Below, piece after piece: positions 4,404 to 57,914 of a DNA stretch of 64,000 nt. A program made the translations under genes and the position numbers. The notes beneath the pieces were generated by a model. The model was not told the origin of the DNA and ran no database searches. It was given only the letters and a program-made list of their open reading frames with translations. Each line of letters starts with the position of its first letter. Position 1 is the first letter of the stretch. This stretch comes from Corynebacterium aurimucosum ATCC 700975 (GTDB lineage: Bacteria > Actinomycetota > Actinomycetes > Mycobacteriales > Mycobacteriaceae): contig NC_012590.1 in NCBI RefSeq assembly GCF_000022905.1, forward strand, positions 496,001-560,000, written 5' to 3'.

Positions 4404-4973
4404 ATGAACAAAATCGGTCAGTTCATCACCACCGTCGTCATCGGCGGCTTCGCCGTATTTCTTGCCGCCCTCATCGTGCTGCCGATGGTCCGTACTGCGG
4501 ATGCGGAGTCGAAGGAGCCGTCGACCGTTGCCCAGTCTTTGAGCGCCTACCCGAAGAACCTGGACTTCGCCGTGTTCATCCCGCAGGATGTGTACGGCCC
4601 GGAGTGGAGTGCGGTCGCCGCCGTCTGCCCGGGTACCACCGAAGATCAGCTCAAGAAGGGCGGCGTGGAGACGAAGAACCTGAACATTGACTTCGCCGAC
4701 GGGGCCGTGCCTGATGACGTGAACTACATGCTGCTGGTCTCGCAGACAGGTGAATTCAAGGCGGAGAAGCTGCCGCGCGCGAAGGTGGACCTGTGTGACG
4801 GTCTGCTGCAGCAGCTGAAGTCGCCGGAAGCAGCCAAGCAGGACTTCCCGCCGCTGCTGCCGTTCCAGCAGGGTCAGCCGCTGCAATTTATGCGCGACAC
4901 CCAGGAATACGCAGAGAAGATGGGTAAGAACAACCCAGACTACGTCGATACCGACTGGCACCTCGCAGGCTAA
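4404..4973 (+). CDS. Membrane-anchored extracytoplasmic protein of unknown function
   Basis: A 189-residue protein with one hydrophobic segment at about residues 10-30 and no cleavage signal that stands out, so it is probably anchored with the bulk of the chain outside the cell. Two cysteines (in AAVCPGTTE and VDLCDGLLQ) lie in the outer part and could form a disulfide. I do not recognise a domain; it looks like a lineage-specific corynebacterial protein. A ribosome site CTAGGAG lies just upstream (4386-4392), and the stop codon TAA overlaps the tsaB start by one base, so it belongs to the t6A operon by position. No function is proposed. Confidence 0.75.
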   Translation: MNKIGQFITTVVIGGFAVFLAALIVLPMVRTADAESKEPSTVAQSLSAYPKNLDFAVFIPQDVYGPEWSAVAAVCPGTTEDQLKKGGVETKNLNIDFADGAVPDDVNYMLLVSQTGEFKAEKLPRAKVDLCDGLLQQLKSPEAAKQDFPPLLPFQQGQPLQFMRDTQEYAEKMGKNNPDYVDTDWHLAG

Positions 4974-5665
4974 TGAAGGTTCTCGCACTCGATACCGCCA
5001 CCACGGATCTGGTCACGGGCATCGTTGACACCGACACCGGGGAGAGCATCGACCGCGTCATCAGCGGTACGCGCGCCCACAACGAGCAGCTCATCCCTAC
5101 CATCGAGGAGCTGCTTGCCGACGCCTCCCTGACCTACGCCGACCTCTCCGCCATCGTCGTTGGCACGGGGCCCGGACCGTTTACCGGCCTGCGCGTGGGT
5201 ATGGCTACCGCGTCCGCCCTGGGAGTGGCCCTTAACCTGCCGGTACATGGTGTGTGCACCTTGGACGCCATTGCGCACGGGCGCGCGGGGGAGTGGCTGG
5301 TGGCCATTGATGCCCGCCGCAAGGAGGTCTACTGGGCCACCTTTGCCGACGGGGAGCGCCGCAGCGGCCCGAACGTATCGAAGCCGGAAACCCTTGATCT
5401 CAGCGCCGCCGGACTCGCGAGCCCGGAGAGCACGCGCCTAGTGTTTCCCGAGTCTATTGCCCTTCGTTTGCCGGAGAGCATCGCTGACCTTCCCCGCGAG
5501 TGGGCTACCCCGCGCGCAGCGGGTTTGGTTGCTTGTGCCGATCTGTCCGCTGAACCTGAGCCGCTCGTCCCGCTCTACCTTCGCCGTCCCGATGCCGTGG
5601 AACCACAGGCCAAGCCGCGCTCGGCTGCCTTGGTCGGCGGCATCGAGGAGACACCGGCATCATGA
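4973..5665 (+). CDS. tsaB: tRNA threonylcarbamoyladenosine biosynthesis protein TsaB
   Basis: TsaB is the inactive TsaD paralogue that dimerises with TsaD in bacterial t6A synthesis. The 230-residue protein starts with the ASKHA fold motif MKVLALDTATTDLV and has the conserved GTGPGPFTGLRVG stretch at about residues 63-75. It overlaps the preceding gene (TAATG) and the following rimI by 4 bp (ATGA), which is the classic tsaB-rimI-tsaD cluster. The segment LADAS is encoded by a 17-bp word (5113-5129) that recurs in unrelated genes of this window. Confidence 0.94.
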   Translation: MKVLALDTATTDLVTGIVDTDTGESIDRVISGTRAHNEQLIPTIEELLADASLTYADLSAIVVGTGPGPFTGLRVGMATASALGVALNLPVHGVCTLDAIAHGRAGEWLVAIDARRKEVYWATFADGERRSGPNVSKPETLDLSAAGLASPESTRLVFPESIALRLPESIADLPREWATPRAAGLVACADLSAEPEPLVPLYLRRPDAVEPQAKPRSAALVGGIEETPAS

Positions 5666-50015: not shown

Positions 50016-50035
50016 AAAGAGCCACACGGCTCTTT
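50016..50035. terminator. Bidirectional terminator between DUF3017 gene and metX
   Basis: AAAGAGCC-ACAC-GGCTCTTT, perfect 8-bp stem. On the minus strand it is followed by a T-run (CTTTTTAGG); on the plus strand by TTTAGATG. The metX stop codon overlaps its end. Confidence 0.85.
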
Positions 50036-51188
50036 AGATGTAGTATTCGTCGCCGACGTACGCAGGGCCTACATCTAAGCCATTCGGCGCGGAGAGCAGC
50101 AGGAAGTTGCGCAGGATGCGATTCATCTGCCGGGTCTCCGTCAGGAAGGCATCGTGGCCCACGGGGGAGACAATCTTGGCCATCGCCAGCAGCTGGTTGA
50201 CGTTGCGAGAGATGTGCTCCTGCTGGTGATAGGGGTAGAGGATATCCGTGTCCACGCCCACCACCATCGTCGGCACCTGGGATGCCGCCAACGCTTTGAT
50301 GAGCCCGCCGCGCCCGCGGCCGACGTCATGCCGGTTCAACGCCTCCGTGAGCACCACGTAGGAACCCGCATCGAAGCGCTCGGTGAGTTTCGCCCCCTGG
50401 TAATCCAGGTAGGAGTTCACCGCGAAACGCTGGTTCAGCTGGCGGTGCGGACCCAAGGGATTCTCGCCTTGCTGTGCGGTAGCGCCGAAGCGCTCGTCGA
50501 TCTCCTGCTCGCCGCGATACGTCAAATGCGCGATGCGGCGCGCCGCTGCCAGACCATCCCGCGGAGTCTTGTCCGTGAGGTAGTAATTTCCGCCATGCCA
50601 AAACGGGTCGCGCTCGATGGCGGAAATCTGCGCGGATTGGATGCCAATCTGCCAGCCCGAAGCCCGAGCAGACACCGCAATTACGCACACCGCGGACACG
50701 CTTTCCGGGTGCAGCAAGCTCCACTCCAGCGTGCGCGCGCCGCCCATCGAGCCGCCGAGTACCGCGTGCACACGCGAAATGCCCAGTTCCTTCAAGCAGT
50801 CGTGCTCGGCCTCCACCAAGTCCCGAATCGACAGCGCCGGGAAGCGCCCGCCCCACGGCTTTCCATCCGGGTGCAGCGACTTCGGCCCCGTCGAGCCATT
50901 GCAGCCGCCCAGCGCATTGGTCGCGATAACGCACCAGCGCGTGGTGTCCAGAGCCTTGCCAGGCCCCACCAGGTCGGACCACCAGTCCGCCACATTGGAA
51001 TCACCGGTCAGCGCATGCTCAACCACGAGGACGTTGTTGACGCCGTCTGGGTCGCCGGCAAAAGCGCCCCAGCGTTGGTAGGCCACGTGGGCGTCGGCAA
51101 GCACGGCGCCTGCTTCCGTGGTGAAGTCACCGATGGGGACGACGGCGAGCTCGCCTTCGGGCGCGAGTTCCGGGACGGCGCTAACCAA
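50034..51188 (-). CDS. metX: Homoserine O-acetyltransferase MetX
   Basis: Acetylates homoserine in the direct-sulfhydrylation route to methionine. It is an alpha/beta hydrolase-fold protein with the nucleophile Ser in VLGGSMGGARTLEW, Asp in VVGVDTDILYP and His in PVGHDAFL. TTG 51188 is given as start since it overlaps the metY stop tightly and gives about 384 residues, near family length; an ATG at 51233 is in frame but overlaps metY by 53 bp. Operon metY-metX. Confidence 0.93.
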   Translation of the reverse strand: MVSAVPELAPEGELAVVPIGDFTTEAGAVLADAHVAYQRWGAFAGDPDGVNNVLVVEHALTGDSNVADWWSDLVGPGKALDTTRWCVIATNALGGCNGSTGPKSLHPDGKPWGGRFPALSIRDLVEAEHDCLKELGISRVHAVLGGSMGGARTLEWSLLHPESVSAVCVIAVSARASGWQIGIQSAQISAIERDPFWHGGNYYLTDKTPRDGLAAARRIAHLTYRGEQEIDERFGATAQQGENPLGPHRQLNQRFAVNSYLDYQGAKLTERFDAGSYVVLTEALNRHDVGRGRGGLIKALAASQVPTMVVGVDTDILYPYHQQEHISRNVNQLLAMAKIVSPVGHDAFLTETRQMNRILRNFLLLSAPNGLDVGPAYVGDEYYI

Positions 51189-52500
51189 TGGCCGCGAACC
51201 CACGCTCGAGATCAGCGATGATGTCCTTGACATCCTCGATGCCCACCGACAGGCGCACCGTGGCCTGCGTAATGCCCGCGGCCTTGAGAGCGGCCTCGTC
51301 GGACTGGGAGTGTGTGGTGGTAGCCGGGTGTACCACCAGCGAGCGGGTATCGCCGATGTTGGCCAGGTTGGAGTGCAGCTGCAGGGCGTCGATAAACGCC
51401 CAGGCCTCCTCGCGGCCGCCGTCGATGTCGAAGGAGAGCACGGAGCCGGTGTAGGCGTAACCGAGCTTCTCCTTGGTGGCCTTGTACGGGGAGGAGTCCA
51501 GGCCAGCGTAATTGACGGTGGTGACCTTGGCGTGGGACTCTAGGTACTCAGCCACGGCCTGGGCGTTGGCATTGTGCTTCTCGACGCGCAACTGCAACGT
51601 CTCAATGCCATTCAGCGTCAGCCAGGCGTTGAAGGGGGAGATGGCGGCACCGGTATCGCGCAGCAGGCCCGCACGCGCCTTGATTGCGAAGGCCGGTGCG
51701 CCCAGGTCGGCGTACTTGAGGCCGTGGTAGGCCTTGTCCGGGGTGACGAAGTAGGGGAAGACGGGCTCGCCGTCGCGCTCGACGGTCCAATCGAAGGAGC
51801 CGCCGTCGATGATGGCACCACCGATGGCGGAGCCGTTGCCGGTATAGAACTTGGTGGTGGAGACGACGACGATGTCCGCGCCCAGCTCCAGCGGGCGGGC
51901 GAGCGCGCCGGTGGCGATGGTGTTGTCCACGATGAGCGGGACCTGGTTCTTGTGGGCTACCTCGGCGATGGCAGGGATGTCGAGAACATCGGCGACTGGG
52001 TTGCCGAAGGTCTCGCCGTAGAAAGCCTTCGTGTTCGGCTGGACGGCGTCCTGCCAAGATGCCGGGTCATCGGGGTTCTCGACGAGGGTGACGTCGATGC
52101 CCAGGCGCTTCAAGGTCACGGTAAAGAGGGTGGAGGTGCCGCCGTAGAGGCGCGGGGAGGTAACAATGTGGTCGCCGGCGGAGGCCAGGTTCAAAATGGC
52201 CGCGGTTTCGGCGGCCTGGCCGGAAGCGAAAGCTACGGCGGCGACGCCGCCCTCGAGGGAAGCGAGGCGCTCTTCGAGCGCATCCTGGGTGGGGTTGGTC
52301 AGGCGGGTGTAAATCGGGCCGGCATCCGAGAGGTTGAAGCGGTTGGCGGCGTGCTCGGCGTCGTTGAAGACATACGAGGTGGTTTGGTAAATCGGCACGT
52401 TGCGTGCGTTGGTGGAGCCGTCCAGGTTCTGGCCGGCGTGGAGGGCGCGGGTGGCAAAAGACCACTCGTTGACTTCGGAATTATCGTATTTGGTGCTCAT
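51181..52500 (-). CDS. metY: O-acetylhomoserine sulfhydrylase MetY
   Basis: Makes homocysteine from O-acetylhomoserine and sulfide. The 439-residue PLP enzyme has the lysine in VVSTTKFYTGNGSAIGG, the motif RLTNPTQDALEERLASLEGG and the typical end RLSVGIEDVKDIIADLERGF. It is upstream of metX and carries two McbR-type sites in front, as expected for a methionine gene. The family includes cystathionine gamma-synthase, but the 430-residue length favours MetY. Confidence 0.95.
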   Translation of the reverse strand: MSTKYDNSEVNEWSFATRALHAGQNLDGSTNARNVPIYQTTSYVFNDAEHAANRFNLSDAGPIYTRLTNPTQDALEERLASLEGGVAAVAFASGQAAETAAILNLASAGDHIVTSPRLYGGTSTLFTVTLKRLGIDVTLVENPDDPASWQDAVQPNTKAFYGETFGNPVADVLDIPAIAEVAHKNQVPLIVDNTIATGALARPLELGADIVVVSTTKFYTGNGSAIGGAIIDGGSFDWTVERDGEPVFPYFVTPDKAYHGLKYADLGAPAFAIKARAGLLRDTGAAISPFNAWLTLNGIETLQLRVEKHNANAQAVAEYLESHAKVTTVNYAGLDSSPYKATKEKLGYAYTGSVLSFDIDGGREEAWAFIDALQLHSNLANIGDTRSLVVHPATTTHSQSDEAALKAAGITQATVRLSVGIEDVKDIIADLERGFAAIG

Positions 52501-52511
52501 GCCACAAAGGC

Positions 52512-52527
52512 TAGACCAAGCGGTTCA
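52512..52527 (+). promoter_or_regulatory. Candidate McbR operator, metY proximal
   Basis: TAGAC-CAAGCG-GTTCA, 12 bp upstream of the metY start. It differs at one base from the site in front of metQ. It is flanked by CCACAAAG (52502-52509) and CTTTGTGG (52541-52548), an 8-bp inverted repeat. Confidence 0.65.
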
Positions 52528-52576
52528 GTGCTGTTAGTGGCTTTGTGGAAACCGCAGGCAAGCCCGAGAATAAAAA

Positions 52577-52592
52577 TAGACCGAGCGGTTGG
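52577..52592 (+). promoter_or_regulatory. Candidate McbR operator, metY distal
   Basis: TAGAC-CGAGCG-GTTGG, 65 bp further upstream than the proximal site. It shares TAGAC and AGCGGTT with the other two sites. Confidence 0.5.
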
Positions 52593-52637
52593 TTCGGTGG
52601 CCCGTGCGCGTTGTAGATCTCCCCGCAGCGCGAAGGC

Positions 52638-53252
52638 TCAAGGCGCCTGTTGGATGTCGATGCTTTCACCGACCTGCGGGCGCTGGTAGCCGGTCACGCC
52701 GGCGCGCTGGAGCATGCCGTCGGTGATTTGCTTGCCGGCGTCGGAAAGCACGGCGTCATGGATGGGCACCGTCACGCGCGCGCCGATGCGCATGGCATAA
52801 TCCGCGGCATCCGCCCCGCGCACCCACGGGCCGGCGATGGGAAGCAGGAGGACATTTACCGTGCGTCCCTTAGGGACGCACCACTGGTCGCCGGGGTGCA
52901 GCACGCCGCCGAAGAAATAACCCAGGTTCTCCGGGCGCGGAATGTTGGGGTGGATTTCCTCGTGGAGCCCGCCCACCGCGTGAATCTCAAGGCCCAGAAC
53001 CGTGAACGTCTCTCCGGCATGCACGGCGGTGCCGGAGCCGATGGCGTTGATGGCTTCCTGCGTTCCCCACACTGGCAGGCCGCTCGCGCGCACGGCATCG
53101 ACGTCGAGGTGATCGCCGTGCGCGTGCGTGAGCAGCACCGCCTCAGCGCCTTCGAGGCAACTGAGATCTGAAAGGGGGCCGGGATCGATAACGATGCGCC
53201 CCTGGGGAGCCTCGACGGCCACGGCGGATTGCCCATGCAGCGAAATCTTCAT
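52638..53252 (-). CDS. MBL-fold metallo-hydrolase
   Basis: A 204-residue metallo-beta-lactamase-fold protein of the UlaG/YtnP-like group with the metal motif THAHGDHLD and further histidines in VGGLHEE and PIHDA. It lies 10 bp after the dipZ stop on the same strand, so it belongs to the proposed SigK-like regulon. Substrate unknown. Confidence 0.85.
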   Translation of the reverse strand: MKISLHGQSAVAVEAPQGRIVIDPGPLSDLSCLEGAEAVLLTHAHGDHLDVDAVRASGLPVWGTQEAINAIGSGTAVHAGETFTVLGLEIHAVGGLHEEIHPNIPRPENLGYFFGGVLHPGDQWCVPKGRTVNVLLLPIAGPWVRGADAADYAMRIGARVTVPIHDAVLSDAGKQITDGMLQRAGVTGYQRPQVGESIDIQQAP

Positions 53253-53262
53253 GATTCCCACG

Positions 53263-54843
53263 CTAGCCAAAAGTGAAGGAATACAGCGAGAGGCCTTCGC
53301 TTACTTCCAGCTCGATTGTTTCGGTGTGATTGTCAGGCTCCCGGACGAGATCCACCGTGCCGTCCTGGGTGATGTCGAAGGTGCGGACCGAACCATCCGC
53401 GCGGTGCACGCGAACCGTTCCGCTCCCTGATGTTACGAGCTGTACCCAGGCGGCGCGATAATTCAGTCGCAGGCGCGCGTGAGGTCCGGCGGTGATGGGC
53501 TGGTCGGCCAAAGTCCACGTCCCACCCAGCGAATACTGACCTAACGGCGGCTCGCTCGTGGTGAACTGGTGCGTGCCGTCGTGGTAATCGGGGTTGGTGA
53601 AATACTGTGCGCGTGCGGTGCCGAGGTAGGTCTCCGGCGAGCGCGGCGCGCTGTTCGCATCGGCTGCTTCAATGGGCTCAGGCAGCGCGATGGAGGGGTC
53701 GCGCTCGAGGAGAAGCTCGCGGATGAGGCGCTCGGTCTCGGCGTAGTCGCCCTCGCCGTGGTGGGATTGGCGCAACATGCCGTGCTTGTCGACGAGATAG
53801 TGCGCCGGCCAGTACCGATTCCCAAAGTTCTTCCACGTGGCGAAGTCATTATCCTGTGCCACTGGATACTCGATTCCCTGCTCGCGGGCCGCACGGCGCA
53901 CGTTGTCGGCCTCGTGCTCGAAAGCGTATTCCGGCGCGTGGATTCCGATGATGTCGAAGCCGTAGTCCTTGTAATGCGCATAGAGCTTGGTCAGGTGCGT
54001 GTTGTTGCGCTGGCAGTTGATGCAGGCATAGGCCCAAAAATCGATGAGCGTGACCTTGCCGGAGGTGCGCGGATCGACGGGCGCATCCGTGTTGAACCAG
54101 CCGGTCAGCCCCGCGAACGCGGGCACGGGGGTTCCTTCCGCTGTGGGAGCGTCCTGTTCAACGGGCGTAGCGTCGACGTTGATGCTGGGGAGTTTCTGCT
54201 GAAGCCACGCGGGCGCGCCGAGTGAGATGGCGCCGGCCATAGCGATCACCACAATTCCCGCAGCGATGCGCACCCCGCGTTGATGGGAGCGGAAAGCATC
54301 GACGCGTTTGCCCACCTCGTTGCCGCCTAAGGCGAAAGCCAGCAGCGGGATCGCCACGCCGAGGGCGAAGGAGAGGCAGAGGAGGAGGATGTGGGCGTCG
54401 ACAGTCCCGGTGGCGCCCGCCACTGAGATTGCGGTCAGTACCGGGCCCGCGCAGGGAACGAAGACAACACCCATGGCTAGGCCAACGACGAAGCCGCCCT
54501 TGTCGCGGGCTTTGGCTTGCAAGCCGCCAGCTTTCGGGAGCTTCTGGAAAGGCCACTCTAGGGCTTCCTGCACGCGTGGGAACACCATTCCTAGGCCAAC
54601 GAGAACGAGCAGCGCGATTCCCACTTTCCACAAGATGTCGGCCGGGAGGCCCAAGGCATTGAGCAGCGTTGTGGCGAAAAGAGTGACGAGGCTAAAACTC
54701 GTCACCAGCCCGCCGATGACCTGCCATGGCCGCCACCGTGAGCCGCCGCTGACTGCGAGGACCAGCGGCAAGACCGGCAAGATGCAGGGCGAGATGCCGG
54801 TGATAAGACCACCGGTAAACCCGATGAAAAGCGTTGATAACAT
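53263..54843 (-). CDS. dipZ: DipZ: CcdA-type disulfide transporter fused to thioredoxin-like domain
   Basis: A 526-residue membrane protein. The N-terminal CcdA domain (about 1-215) has six membrane segments with the paired cysteines SPCILPVLPLVL and FVPCAGPVL. An outer thioredoxin/TlpA-like domain follows with CINC as active-site motif (AYACINCQRNN) and then a C-terminal beta-sandwich like that of M. tuberculosis DipZ. It passes electrons to extracytoplasmic proteins. ATG 54843 has AAGGAG before it. In M. tuberculosis dipZ is in the SigK regulon; here it is divergent from a SigK-like gene with a matching promoter. Confidence 0.92.
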   Translation of the reverse strand: MLSTLFIGFTGGLITGISPCILPVLPLVLAVSGGSRWRPWQVIGGLVTSFSLVTLFATTLLNALGLPADILWKVGIALLVLVGLGMVFPRVQEALEWPFQKLPKAGGLQAKARDKGGFVVGLAMGVVFVPCAGPVLTAISVAGATGTVDAHILLLCLSFALGVAIPLLAFALGGNEVGKRVDAFRSHQRGVRIAAGIVVIAMAGAISLGAPAWLQQKLPSINVDATPVEQDAPTAEGTPVPAFAGLTGWFNTDAPVDPRTSGKVTLIDFWAYACINCQRNNTHLTKLYAHYKDYGFDIIGIHAPEYAFEHEADNVRRAAREQGIEYPVAQDNDFATWKNFGNRYWPAHYLVDKHGMLRQSHHGEGDYAETERLIRELLLERDPSIALPEPIEAADANSAPRSPETYLGTARAQYFTNPDYHDGTHQFTTSEPPLGQYSLGGTWTLADQPITAGPHARLRLNYRAAWVQLVTSGSGTVRVHRADGSVRTFDITQDGTVDLVREPDNHTETIELEVSEGLSLYSFTFG

Positions 54844-54885
54844 GCTGTGCTCCTTCGCTTGTGGTGCGGTGTGGGTATGCAATCA

Positions 54886-54913
54886 GTTCGGAGCACACGT
54901 GATAAACGGATTG
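54886..54913 (-). promoter_or_regulatory. ECF-type (SigK-like) promoter of dipZ
   Basis: On the minus strand CAATCC (54908-54913), 16-nt spacer, CCGAAC (54886-54891). The M. tuberculosis SigK consensus is about CCATCC-N16/17-CCGAAT. The same arrangement occurs on the plus strand at 54937-54964. Confidence 0.72.
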
Positions 54914-54936
54914 CCACAAACTTTTTTAAATCCATC

Positions 54937-54964
54937 CAATCCGCGTCACGGGGCGGCTCCGAAT
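54937..54964 (+). promoter_or_regulatory. ECF-type (SigK-like) promoter of the lipoprotein-sigK-rskA operon
   Basis: CAATCC (54937-54942), 16-nt spacer, CCGAAT (54959-54964). A CCATCC begins 5 bp upstream (54932), but its spacing of 21 nt is too long. The predicted mRNA leader is about 50 nt. Confidence 0.75.
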
Positions 54965-55021
54965 GGTGAGATACAGGGCCCGGAAACACCGGACCCGAAA
55001 ACCTGAAGAAGGAGCACCGAA

Positions 55022-55243
55022 ATGAAGAAGCTTGTTACTACCGCCGCTGCACTTGCCGTTGCCGCCAGTGGGTTGGTTGCCTGCAACGACACGAAGGAAG
55101 ACATGGACATGATGCCCAGCTCTGAGATGATGGCCCCGAGCTCGGACGCCATGGAGTCGGATTCCATGATGACCGAGGAAAAGATGACCGAGGAAATGGA
55201 GAGCGATGAGATGATGGCGCCGAGTGAAGAAATGACTAAGTAA
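55022..55243 (+). CDS. Small Met/Glu/Asp/Ser-rich lipoprotein
   Basis: A 73-residue lipoprotein. Signal peptide MKKLVTTAAALAVAASG with lipobox LVAC; the mature part of about 52 residues is almost only Met, Glu, Asp, Ser and Thr, with repeated MM pairs (DMDMMPSSEMMAPSS, DSMMTEEKMTEE). Such a chain is probably disordered and could bind copper or other soft metals, or act as a methionine-sulfoxide sink. It is the first gene of the unit with the sigma and anti-sigma genes and faces dipZ. The ribosome site GAAGGAG is good. No homologue is recognised. Confidence 0.8.
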   Translation: MKKLVTTAAALAVAASGLVACNDTKEDMDMMPSSEMMAPSSDAMESDSMMTEEKMTEEMESDEMMAPSEEMTK

Positions 55244-55250
55244 AAGTGCC

Positions 55251-55859
55251 ATGTCCGCCCCGTTGCTGGAGGTAAGCTCTACACCCGTGTCTGCGATGTC
55301 ACCTGATGAACATGCGCGGCTGAACCACCTGCTCGTTCAGACCGCTGCGGCAGACAAGCATGCCTTCAGCGCGCTATACGACGCCCTCGCACCCACCGTG
55401 TACAGCGTGTGCCTGAGCGTTTTGCGCAATCCTGCTTTGGCGGAAGAGGTTGCCCAAGACGTCTTCGTTGAGGTGTGGACTTCCGCTGCGAAATTTGATC
55501 CGCAGCGAGGGAACGCGCGGTCGTGGGTAGGCAGGCTGGCGCATGGGAGGGCCGTCGATAAGCTGCGTAGCCACGTTGCCGCAGTGCACCGTGATGACCG
55601 CGACGCGCTGCTGACCCAGGCTACCTACACCGAGCCCCTCGAAGATGAGGCCCTAGGACATGTCGAAGCGCAGCGTCTGCGCCGGGCTATCGGCGAGATC
55701 GGGGAGCCACATTCCACCGCGGTAGCCCTCGCATTTTTCAATGGCTTGACGCATGCTGAACTGGCAGAATCAACGGGAGTCCCGCTAGGTACGGCGAAGA
55801 CGCGCGTGCGCGACGGCGTTAAGAAGCTAAAAGCGATCCTCGGAAGGGAGGGAAGATGA
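55251..55859 (+). CDS. sigK: ECF sigma factor, SigK-like
   Basis: A 202-residue ECF sigma factor with region 2 (FSALYDALAPTVYSVCLSVL, then EEVAQDVFVEVWTSA) and region 4 (LAFFNGLTHAELAESTGVPLGTAKTRVRDG in outline). The RskA-like anti-sigma factor overlaps by 4 bp. SigK is proposed since dipZ and a lipoprotein lie next to it, as in the mycobacterial SigK regulon, and since both promoters fit the SigK type. ATG 55251 has no good ribosome site; GTG 55287 or ATG 55296 are alternatives. Confidence 0.85.
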   Translation: MSAPLLEVSSTPVSAMSPDEHARLNHLLVQTAAADKHAFSALYDALAPTVYSVCLSVLRNPALAEEVAQDVFVEVWTSAAKFDPQRGNARSWVGRLAHGRAVDKLRSHVAAVHRDDRDALLTQATYTEPLEDEALGHVEAQRLRRAIGEIGEPHSTAVALAFFNGLTHAELAESTGVPLGTAKTRVRDGVKKLKAILGREGR

Positions 55860-56488
55860 GCAATACGCATGAGTTTTCTGATGAGACTTTCGACGACTTC
55901 CTCGATTCCCTCCCCGAGGTCGAACCGCCAGCGCGAATGAAAGATGCCATCTTTGCGGAAATTGACGGGGGCGAAGCTGCCGAGGTTATCGAGCTTCCAC
56001 GTCGCCGGTGGCGGGCCTTCGTGGCAGTGCCAGCGGCCGCGGCAGTGCTCGTCGCGGGCGTGGTAGCAGCGCCGCAGCTCTTGCAGTTGGGTCAACCCGA
56101 TGCAGCGGATAGCGCGCGAGTCGAAGCCGAATCGCCGGGCGAGAAATCTATGCATGACATCATGGGGGCAGAGGACCTTATGCAGGGCAATGCGGATGTC
56201 TCGGGAGCGCAACTGGATATCGTTTCCTCCGCCTCGATGGCGAAATCCGGCGCGATGGTCGATGGCCAGCCACAACTGGCCGACGGCATGGGCGCCCAGG
56301 TGTGGGCAGTCAGTGCAGATGGTGAGATGGCCTCAGCCGGGGTTATCGGTCAGGACCCACACGATGGGGTGTGGATGCCCTTCGACGGTGCCGCGGTCAA
56401 AGTCATGGTTACCGAGGAACCTGCGGGTGGCAGCGAGCAACCGACGGGCCGCACCCTCGCCACCGTGACCTTGGCCAGCGCTAGCTAG
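55856..56488 (+). CDS. rskA: Anti-sigma-K factor RskA-like protein
   Basis: A 210-residue single-pass membrane protein. The cytoplasmic N-terminus is short (about 60 residues, without the HxxxCxxC zinc motif of classic anti-sigma factors), one membrane segment follows (about 62-80, AFVAVPAAAAVLVAGVVAA), then an outer RskA-type C-terminal domain (DGQPQLADGMGAQVWAVSADGEM … ATVTLAS). Released SigK would transcribe this operon and dipZ. The gene is coupled to the sigma gene. Confidence 0.85.
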   Translation: MSNTHEFSDETFDDFLDSLPEVEPPARMKDAIFAEIDGGEAAEVIELPRRRWRAFVAVPAAAAVLVAGVVAAPQLLQLGQPDAADSARVEAESPGEKSMHDIMGAEDLMQGNADVSGAQLDIVSSASMAKSGAMVDGQPQLADGMGAQVWAVSADGEMASAGVIGQDPHDGVWMPFDGAAVKVMVTEEPAGGSEQPTGRTLATVTLASAS

Positions 56489-56531
56489 CCCAGTATGCGC
56501 TAGGGCAGCTACGCGCCAGGCCAGCTACATG

Positions 56532-57833
56532 TCAGCTAGTTAAGGCCTGCTTGACCAGATCCAGCGCGGCGGCGAGTTCGACATCGCTCAAATGCCCAAA
56601 GCCCAAGACCACGCCTTCCTCGGCGGCCACGCCGCCCCAGTAGTCACTGAGCGGGGTGAGCGTTAGCCCTAGGGAAGCTGCGCGGTCGACTACGGCGTTA
56701 TCGCACAGCAACACCGCATGGAGCCCGCCGTGGATGGGCAGAAGGGTAGCGGGGGCGTCTTCCAGCGCGGCTTGGACGAGATCGCGGCGGCGCTTGTAGG
56801 CGCGGCGCATCCGGCCGGTATGCCGCCGTAGCGCACCGCTGGCCAGGTAGTTCGCCAACGCCGCTTGGGGGATAGCACCGACGGGCTGGCCGAAGACCTC
56901 CCGGACGCGGTCCACCGCCGAGCGCAAGCTCGGCGGCACCACGAGGTAGCCGCAGGCAATCGACGGCGAAATCACCGAGGAAAACGTGCCCAGCAAGACG
57001 GTGTGCTCCGGGGCGAGCGCGGCCAGCGCGGGCAAGGGCTGGCCGACGTAGCGCAGTTCGGAATCGAAGTCATCCTCGATGATGAGCACGTCGTTGCTGC
57101 GTGCCCACTCGACGAGTTCCGCGCGCCGGGCCGCCGGCAGCGAACCGCCATAAGGGTGCTGGTGGGAGGGGGTGACGATGAGAACGTCGAGGTCAACGGT
57201 GGGGACGGTGACGCCGTGGGCGTCGGTGGGGACGTCGACAAGCGTGTGCCCCAAAGCTTGGGGGACGCGGCGCAGGCTGGGGTAGCCGGGGGATTCCACG
57301 CCGACTCGTAGGTGGCCTCCCAGCGCGCGCAGCAGCACCGAGAGGCCGTCGCGGGCGCCGGCGGTGATGACAACGTAAGCCGGGTCGACGGTGAGCCCGC
57401 GCATGTGGCGCAGGTGCGCGGCCACCTCGCGGGGAAGATCGCCGGAAGGATTCACCGCGGCCTTGCGCCACGCCGCCCTCCATTCGGGGGTGATGATTCC
57501 GGCCGTATCGGGCAAGCCGGGGGTCAACTCCACGCGCGGTGGGGCAGGACTGGGCCGCGGCGCGGGGTGAGGCTGTGGGGTGCGCCCATGGGGCAGGTGC
57601 GGGTTGATGACTGTGCCCGAGCCAACCGACGCGGTGAGGTAGCCCTCGGCGGTGAGCTGCTCGTAGGCGGTAACCACGCTGCCTCGGGAAATGCCCAGAT
57701 CGCGCGCCAGCGAACGCGTCGACGGCACCTGCTCGCCGGGCAGCAAAATGCCCGCCGCGACTTGGGTGCGGAGGGCTTCGGCAATCTGCACCGGCAACGC
57801 GCGCGTATCAGATGGATCGAGGCGGAAAGACAC
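56532..57833 (-). CDS. pdxR: MocR-type regulator PdxR
   Basis: A 433-residue regulator with an N-terminal GntR winged helix (about 10-75) and an aminotransferase-like domain. Placed divergent from pdxST it should be PdxR, which activates pdxST when PLP is short. In this family the PLP lysine is in a motif like GTFSK; here it reads LLGTFSSVISPSIACGY, with Ser at the Lys place. Other PLP-site residues seem present (DDFDSELRY). A Pro-rich linker joins the domains. Confidence 0.88.
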   Translation of the reverse strand: MSFRLDPSDTRALPVQIAEALRTQVAAGILLPGEQVPSTRSLARDLGISRGSVVTAYEQLTAEGYLTASVGSGTVINPHLPHGRTPQPHPAPRPSPAPPRVELTPGLPDTAGIITPEWRAAWRKAAVNPSGDLPREVAAHLRHMRGLTVDPAYVVITAGARDGLSVLLRALGGHLRVGVESPGYPSLRRVPQALGHTLVDVPTDAHGVTVPTVDLDVLIVTPSHQHPYGGSLPAARRAELVEWARSNDVLIIEDDFDSELRYVGQPLPALAALAPEHTVLLGTFSSVISPSIACGYLVVPPSLRSAVDRVREVFGQPVGAIPQAALANYLASGALRRHTGRMRRAYKRRRDLVQAALEDAPATLLPIHGGLHAVLLCDNAVVDRAASLGLTLTPLSDYWGGVAAEEGVVLGFGHLSDVELAAALDLVKQALTS

Positions 57834-57844
57834 GACCCCATCAT

Positions 57845-57854
57845 AAGTGGTCTA
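57845..57854 (+). promoter_or_regulatory. Candidate PdxR binding site
   Basis: AAGTGGTCTA in the pdxR-pdxS gap. It matches the C. glutamicum PdxR motif as I recall it (AAAGTGG-W-CTA). A second weaker copy may be ATAGTGGCCC on the minus strand near 57897-57906. Confidence 0.5.
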
Positions 57855-57914
57855 ATTCGACACTCGGAAAATGGCTCTTGTCTTGGACCAATTTTCTGGG
57901 CCACTATGTGAGCC

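Follow-up and report, generated by a model that had tools for sequence, protein, structure and literature searches.

In mycobacteria, the ECF sigma factor gene sigK reportedly belongs to an mpt83-sigK-rskA cassette and heads a SigK regulon, whose promoter consensus is of the CCATCC/CCGAA class. To our knowledge, what SigK, RskA, MPT70/83 and DipZ respond to and what they do is unsettled. The positions of the redox cysteines of M. tuberculosis SigK are given in the available part of PMC7509140, according to which 94% of ECF18 but only 56% of ECF19 members keep these cysteines (section 11) and RskA is truncated in 9% of cysteine-less versus 0.3% of cysteine-bearing loci. Thus, cysteine-less SigK is known elsewhere, and the loss of these residues is not in itself new. 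In Brucella, an HOCl-induced ECF system includes BcrX, called an MXKDX repeat protein in PMC8315932, and the same system is covered in a review (PMC10151825, available in part). In Corynebacterium pseudotuberculosis, the island PiCp2 brings together sigK, an anti-sigma factor gene (cskE) and dipZ, and the accessible part of that text makes no mention of a promoter pair, a methionine-rich lipoprotein or cysteine loss (PMC3078919). According to the available part of PMC7923171, sigK of this species fell below the authors' threshold under heat, osmotic and acid stress, which decides nothing for the module described here.

The window analysed is a stretch of 64,000 nucleotides from Corynebacterium aurimucosum ATCC 700975 (contig NC_012590.1, positions 496,001 to 560,000). 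As in the mycobacterial cassette, at least as presented in the accessible sections of PMC7509140, genes for an ECF sigma factor and an RskA-type anti-sigma factor adjoin a lipoprotein gene; as in the mycobacterial regulon, DipZ and promoters of the CCATCC/CCGAA class are involved. However, a methionine-rich lipoprotein replaces the fasciclin lipoprotein beside sigK, Cys133 and Cys183 of the sigma factor are gone, its clade is separate, the -35 block is CCAATCC rather than CCCA..., and the anti-sigma factor carries a set of Met/His residues. On the plus strand, the lipoprotein gene (55022..55243) is followed after 7 bp by the sigK-like gene (55251..55859, hereafter form B), which overlaps the rskA-like gene (55856..56488) by 4 bp; dipZ (53263..54843) lies on the minus strand.

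The gap between the ATG of dipZ (54843) and that of the lipoprotein gene (55022) measures 178 bp, as given in a preliminary description of this DNA, and holds two predicted SigK-type promoters. That of the lipoprotein-sigK-rskA operon (54937..54964, plus strand) reads CAATCC-N16-CCGAAT, its full block, CCAATCC-N14-CTCCGAA, scoring 14/14, and the divergent one of dipZ (54886..54913, minus strand) reads CAATCC-N16-CCGAAC and scores 13/14. The shared motif, its coordinates and the spacing of exactly 16 nt claimed in that description therefore stand for both sites, but the promoters are not facing: their CAATCC hexamers, the -35 blocks, are mutually nearest, so that the two lie back-to-back and point away from each other. 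In Brucella, too, bcrX and bcrS are each preceded by a predicted site of a common motif, the two sites lying on opposite strands (PMC8315932, available part). The 23 bp separating the hexamers (54914..54936) hold an A3-C-T6 run that may be UP-element-like. Judged by eye, each of the two starts is preceded by a ribosome site of the AAGGAG type, and an Rfam scan of 52000-57900 gave no match.

When spacings of 15-18 nt were allowed, the pattern matched twice in the window, a number reached in 0/100 shuffles (mean 0.06), and the genome scan that had been asked for, run over the 2.82 Mb at 15-17 nt, found one match beyond the pair, within a long open reading frame. Taken together, these results make a chance pair unlikely. 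Permitting one mismatch added four sites, all within long reading frames; thus, a wider SigK regulon in this genome was rejected, and the regulon appears compact, as proposed, with no further convincing site at up to one mismatch. With up to two mismatches the whole genome gave 68 matches versus 38 for the reversed pattern, and, taking into account that three of the 62 two-mismatch sites were inspected (L225, L241 and L243), weaker regulon members may exist. Separately, two-mismatch matches at about 2499234-2500061 of contig G000:C2 line up at 27-bp steps inside a long reading frame, which probably reflects tandem repeats.

A search of 242 Corynebacterium genomes (sigma factor at E <= 1e-36, DipZ at E <= 1e-30) found the sigma factor in 63, DipZ in 66 and both in 61, two listings being compared by eye. 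At those limits, DipZ is missing from G078 and G125, which have the sigma factor, and the sigma factor from G029, G083, G126, G353 and G391, which have DipZ. In a sample of 151 genomes the figures are 41, 42 and 39 (Fisher p 4e-30, not corrected for phylogeny). The 63 genomes yielded 64 loci; dipZ is divergent from sigK within 2.4 kb in 59 of them (exceptions L047, L055, L059, L073 and L183), and a lipoprotein was called in all except L047 and L073 (62/64). Named copies L074-L079 duplicate genomes of the set and were left out of later counts. Among frames of at least 100 aa, the only ones recurring widely are dipZ, sigK and rskA, in 29, 26 and 23 of 31 SigK clusters, respectively. Below the E-value limit, and hence outside the counts of 62-64 loci, G391 (L274) and G075 (L264) each encode a Met-rich lipoprotein and carry one or more sites. 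As a side observation, G054 holds two module copies on one contig (L201 and L060); in the second, the lipoprotein is shortened, dipZ is in pieces, and a stop falls within the matched sigK stretch, where it may precede the true start.

The promoter pair is conserved with the genes. The best site on the lipoprotein side scores at least 12/14 in 58/62 loci, with a 16-nt spacing in 55 of the 58, and that on the dipZ side does so in 54/62, with 16 nt in 47 of the 54; 52/62 loci reach this score on both sides. In the 42 loci tested by shuffling, which still include the duplicates L075, L077 and L078, each observed score of at least 12 was reached by at most 1/60 shuffles. Across the 151 genomes the exact 16-nt pattern occurs 60 times, 49 of them at the sigK locus, taken as the 1.6 kb around the start of sigK (one match lies beside a dipZ on a different contig from its sigK), versus 3/24 with 15 nt and 0/7 with 17 nt. 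A genus scan with 17-19 nt between the blocks gave 35 matches, none at the locus by reading. Where SigK identity has dropped to about 50%, the spacers have diverged, but CCAATCC and CTCCG(A/T)A are still present as boxes. L183 lacks the pair and encodes an acidic lipoprotein without methionine. Two related genomes carry motifs away from the sigK locus (L270 at 2086, 14/14; L271 at 2322, 13/14 with 15-nt spacing), possibly marking an extra regulon member.

The distance between the two CCAATCC boxes, analysed in the 50 of 62 loci that passed the filter, takes the values -2, 1, 11/12, 21-23, 32, 35, 42/43 and then 51 to 102 bp. Up to 45 bp, most gaps lie near whole helical turns, the misfits being -2 (two loci) and 35 (one locus); several longer gaps are also off helical turns. 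This is a post hoc finding. When loci were collapsed at 85% SigK identity, the 23 gaps of at most 45 bp gave a best period of 10.85 bp (R 0.84, p 5e-5), and collapse at 80 or 85% gives p 2e-5 to 5e-5, at or near the simulation floor; with distinct gap values only, p is 3e-4 for the 11 values of at most 45 bp and 0.0014 for 19 values, and at 70% (12 clusters) the signal is weak (p 0.016, or 0.022 if gaps above 45 are left aside). Overall, the period that fits best lies at 10.85-11.05, not at 10.5. As controls, the distances from -10 box to start codon show little or no periodicity (p 0.27 and 0.09), and start-to-start distances give p 0.015. Inside single clades the gap steps from 1 to 22, from 12 to 21/22 and from 32 to 43, and also from 67 to 102. 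For gaps of 11-45, the inter-box stretch is 70% A+T versus 46% for the intergenic region, and an AAA..TTT run is present in 18/25 stretches. This composition suggests an UP element shared by both promoters; loci with a gap of 1 are too short to hold one.

The lipoprotein of the window has 73 aa, a lipobox LVAC, 13 methionines among 53 mature residues and no Pfam match, fasciclin included. In its relatives, methionine makes up a median of 18.4% of the mature chain (median count 10) and at least 10% in 57/62; the five below are L183 (none), L190, L042, L201 (the shortened second copy) and L186, which falls below only through a misplaced lipobox call and has 11 Met in 62 residues. The composition over 60 lipoproteins (Met 18.0, Ser 16.7, Asp 13.3, Glu 12.0, Lys 10.4 and His 1.4%) is that of a disordered-looking chain. 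In the 60 with at least four methionines, and with relatedness uncorrected, Met pairs two and three residues apart occur at 0.09 and 0.45 times the shuffled number, and those five to seven apart at 1.36-1.85 times. Copper motifs are of the MxM/MxxM type, and the spacing in these chains is unlike them. Two of five related lipoproteins exceed the cut-off of the pentapeptide MXKDX model TIGR02953 (45.4 and 44.4 bits; cut-off 41), and that of the window has no match to it; such low-complexity matches are weak evidence.

On the other side, DipZ (526 aa) joins CcdA-like membrane, thioredoxin-like and C-terminal Thioredoxin_10 domains (Pfam), as expected of its family, and its residues 239-526 match the M. 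tuberculosis DipZ structures 5cyy (E 4e-68) and 2hyx (E 6e-68). A metallo-beta-lactamase-fold hydrolase gene (52638..53270, minus strand) overlaps the end of dipZ. It had been counted into a compact autoregulated SigK-type regulon; four core genes, probably autoregulated, remain of that proposal, and the hydrolase, which recurs at 7 loci (4/31 SigK clusters), was rejected as a core gene and is regarded as a local passenger. Two genes adjoining it (50034-52500, minus strand), which we take to encode homoserine acetyltransferase-like and O-acetylhomoserine sulfhydrylase-like enzymes of methionine synthesis, are each found near the module in 5/31 SigK clusters. Beyond rskA lies a PdxR-like MocR regulator gene (56532-57833, minus strand; NF052282 above cut-off), divergent from presumably pdxS-like and pdxT-like genes.

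The sigma factor is 97% identical to that of C. minutissimum strain 1941, its own species being perhaps outside the search set. SigK is its closest solved or curated relative (PDB 4nqw of M. tuberculosis, E 1.2e-26; best NCBIfam model PRK09646, 183 bits, below its cut-off of 226). However, the earlier assignment to the M. tuberculosis SigK type fails, since the protein falls in a separate clade and lacks the redox cysteines. Among 64 form-B sigma factors, Cys133 is absent in 64/64 and Cys183 in the 60/60 with a residue there, and both are present in 12/12 fasciclin-linked Corynebacterium SigK and also in L262 and L266. In a rooted tree, from which L206 and the frame-broken L274 were omitted, UFBoot support for the window clade is 100 with 30 representatives, L073 not among them, or 88 once L073 and Actinomyces L080 are included, and the SigK proteins of fasciclin-type Corynebacterium, M. 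tuberculosis and other Mycobacteriales form one group (UFBoot 90); a quicker tree supports the window clade at 0.83.

Fasciclin genes occur in 31/242 genomes and in 0/63 of those with the form-B sigma factor (p 4e-5, not corrected for phylogeny). The comparison covered 13 of the 31: in 12 of these a sigK-like gene adjoins the fasciclin gene, and in the other, G398 (L272), there is none within 7.5 kb. Fasciclin-type loci without dipZ carry a site of at least 12/14 near the fasciclin gene in 9/11 cases, and in all 9 the third base of the -35 block is C, not A. Since this base follows the type of locus, box and sigma type change together. Some loci are mixed: G029 (L255) combines a Cys-type SigK, dipZ and, beside it, a fasciclin lipoprotein with a Met-rich linker (4429-5136, minus strand), and is a possible evolutionary intermediate of the two cassettes. 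In G083 (L263), dipZ is found with a lipoprotein in which 21 of 116 residues are Met and with a cysteine-less sigma factor that is only distantly related; thus, two lineages combine DipZ with a Met-rich lipoprotein and loss of the cysteines. In L073 and Actinomyces L080, dipZ lies beside a cysteine-less sigma factor, with no Met-rich lipoprotein seen nearby, and in L255 and L216 DipZ accompanies a cysteine-bearing SigK.

The anti-sigma factor of the window is full length (210 aa) and of the RskA family (RskA_C, PF10099, E 2.3e-21; 76.9 bits, cut-off 29.4), encoded downstream of the sigma factor gene. Part of its extracytoplasmic domain (56150..56377, plus strand) carries M99, H100, M103, M128, M134, M145, H169 and M174, which among 63 RskA are conserved in 58, 54, 57, 61, 56, 62, 60 and 63, respectively. 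As a whole, the set is missing from the 18 other RskA compared, 10 of them fasciclin-type; single positions coincide in L254, L261, L263, L080 and L203, and L073 retains only M128. The ectodomain holds 6.6% Met versus 3.4% (medians; 63 versus 10 proteins). When the RskA alignment was searched against PDB sequences, the one match was at chance level (E 0.44). Neither the Met/His set nor the methionine-rich lipoprotein or the helical steps in promoter spacing figured in the preliminary description.

Taking these features into account, we consider it somewhat probable that the locus is an autoregulated envelope module whose lipoprotein acts as a sacrificial methionine sink supplied with reductant by DipZ, like Brucella BcrX. 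Both sites would be divergent promoters of the single ECF sigma factor encoded in the module. At rest, membrane-bound RskA would hold the sigma factor; a signal outside the membrane would act on the sensor domain with its eight conserved Met/His positions, and the freed sigma factor would fire both promoters, rightwards giving more sigma factor, RskA and Met-rich surface lipoprotein, and leftwards DipZ. Sigma release, dual firing and autoregulation are proposed because of family membership. Most likely, the lipoprotein would then be a sink for oxidants of the hypochlorous acid type, and DipZ would pass reducing power across the membrane. The oxidant reading draws on methionine composition, methionine spacing and the Brucella parallel: in the available part of PMC8315932, the Brucella BcrS-AbcS/BcrXQP and, as cited there, the Azospira yedYZ-mrpX systems likewise set an ECF sigma and anti-sigma factor beside a Met-rich MXKDX-type peptide. 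In contrast to the ECF16, six-helix DUF1109 anti-sigma factor and MsrPQ described there for Brucella, the module has RskA and DipZ, and its peptide is a lipoprotein. With an RskA_C anti-sigma factor, the locus is not of the BcrS/SigF type (ECF16), and no DUF1109 or MsrPQ domain was found in the six locus proteins scanned. Against the sink, inspection by eye showed no signal peptide in the one MsrA and the one MsrB of the genome, and these two families thus yielded no repair enzyme that would be exported. The loci L183, L073 and L080, in which no Met-rich lipoprotein was seen, weigh the same way.

The near-invariant Met/His residues of the sensor domain fit copper as well, which counts against the sink and makes copper a serious rival, in the end judged unlikely. 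In such a Cu(I)/Ag(I) module, M99-H100-x2-M103, M128, M134, M145, H169 and M174 of RskA would bind Cu(I), the lipoprotein would buffer it at the surface and DipZ would keep thiol or copper sites reduced; a Met-rich extracytoplasmic protein suits this, and DsbD/CcdA-type proteins can serve metal-site assembly. However, the lipoproteins contain MxM and MxxM less often than their shuffled versions, and histidine is scarce. Moreover, no other family of frames of at least 100 aa lies beside the module in more than 6/31 SigK clusters, which leaves the module without an accompanying copper gene of that size. Thiol or metal stress, as put forward in the preliminary description, may apply; methionine oxidation is the first choice of signal and copper the second.

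That the module works like the M. tuberculosis SigK system, in that a disulfide in the sigma factor exerts redox control and the lipoprotein serves as surface antigen, is highly improbable. It would agree with the best PDB and NCBIfam matches, RskA_C and the DipZ partner, but the absent cysteines and the separate clade leave a disulfide switch in this form largely refuted, and no fasciclin (PF02469) match occurs in the window genome, which agrees with the claim that the MPT70/MPT83 antigens are missing. Least probable of all is a genuine motif pair used by another ECF sigma factor, with the lipoprotein as a structural surface protein: it gains from the pairing of sigma factor and sites being one that we infer, and is opposed by the concentration of exact matches at sigK and by the -35 base that tracks sigma type.

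Thus, the module looks like a cell-surface defence against oxidants or copper, distinct from the tuberculosis-type system. One genus holds two alternative cassettes, fasciclin plus cysteine pair or Met-rich lipoprotein plus DipZ, and this natural contrast offers two testable guesses, namely that Met/His residues sense an oxidant or copper as the signal and that DipZ serves methionine-based surface defence. It is a tentative possibility, short of probable, that this is a SigK-like system with another chemistry, in which the sigma cysteine switch is lost, the anti-sigma factor has a Met/His site, a DipZ-fed Met-rich lipoprotein replaces fasciclin, and two helically phased promoters share one upstream element. 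If so, Gram-positive bacteria would have their own counterpart of MrpX/BcrX, and the module would provide a clue to the roles of SigK and DipZ in mycobacteria.
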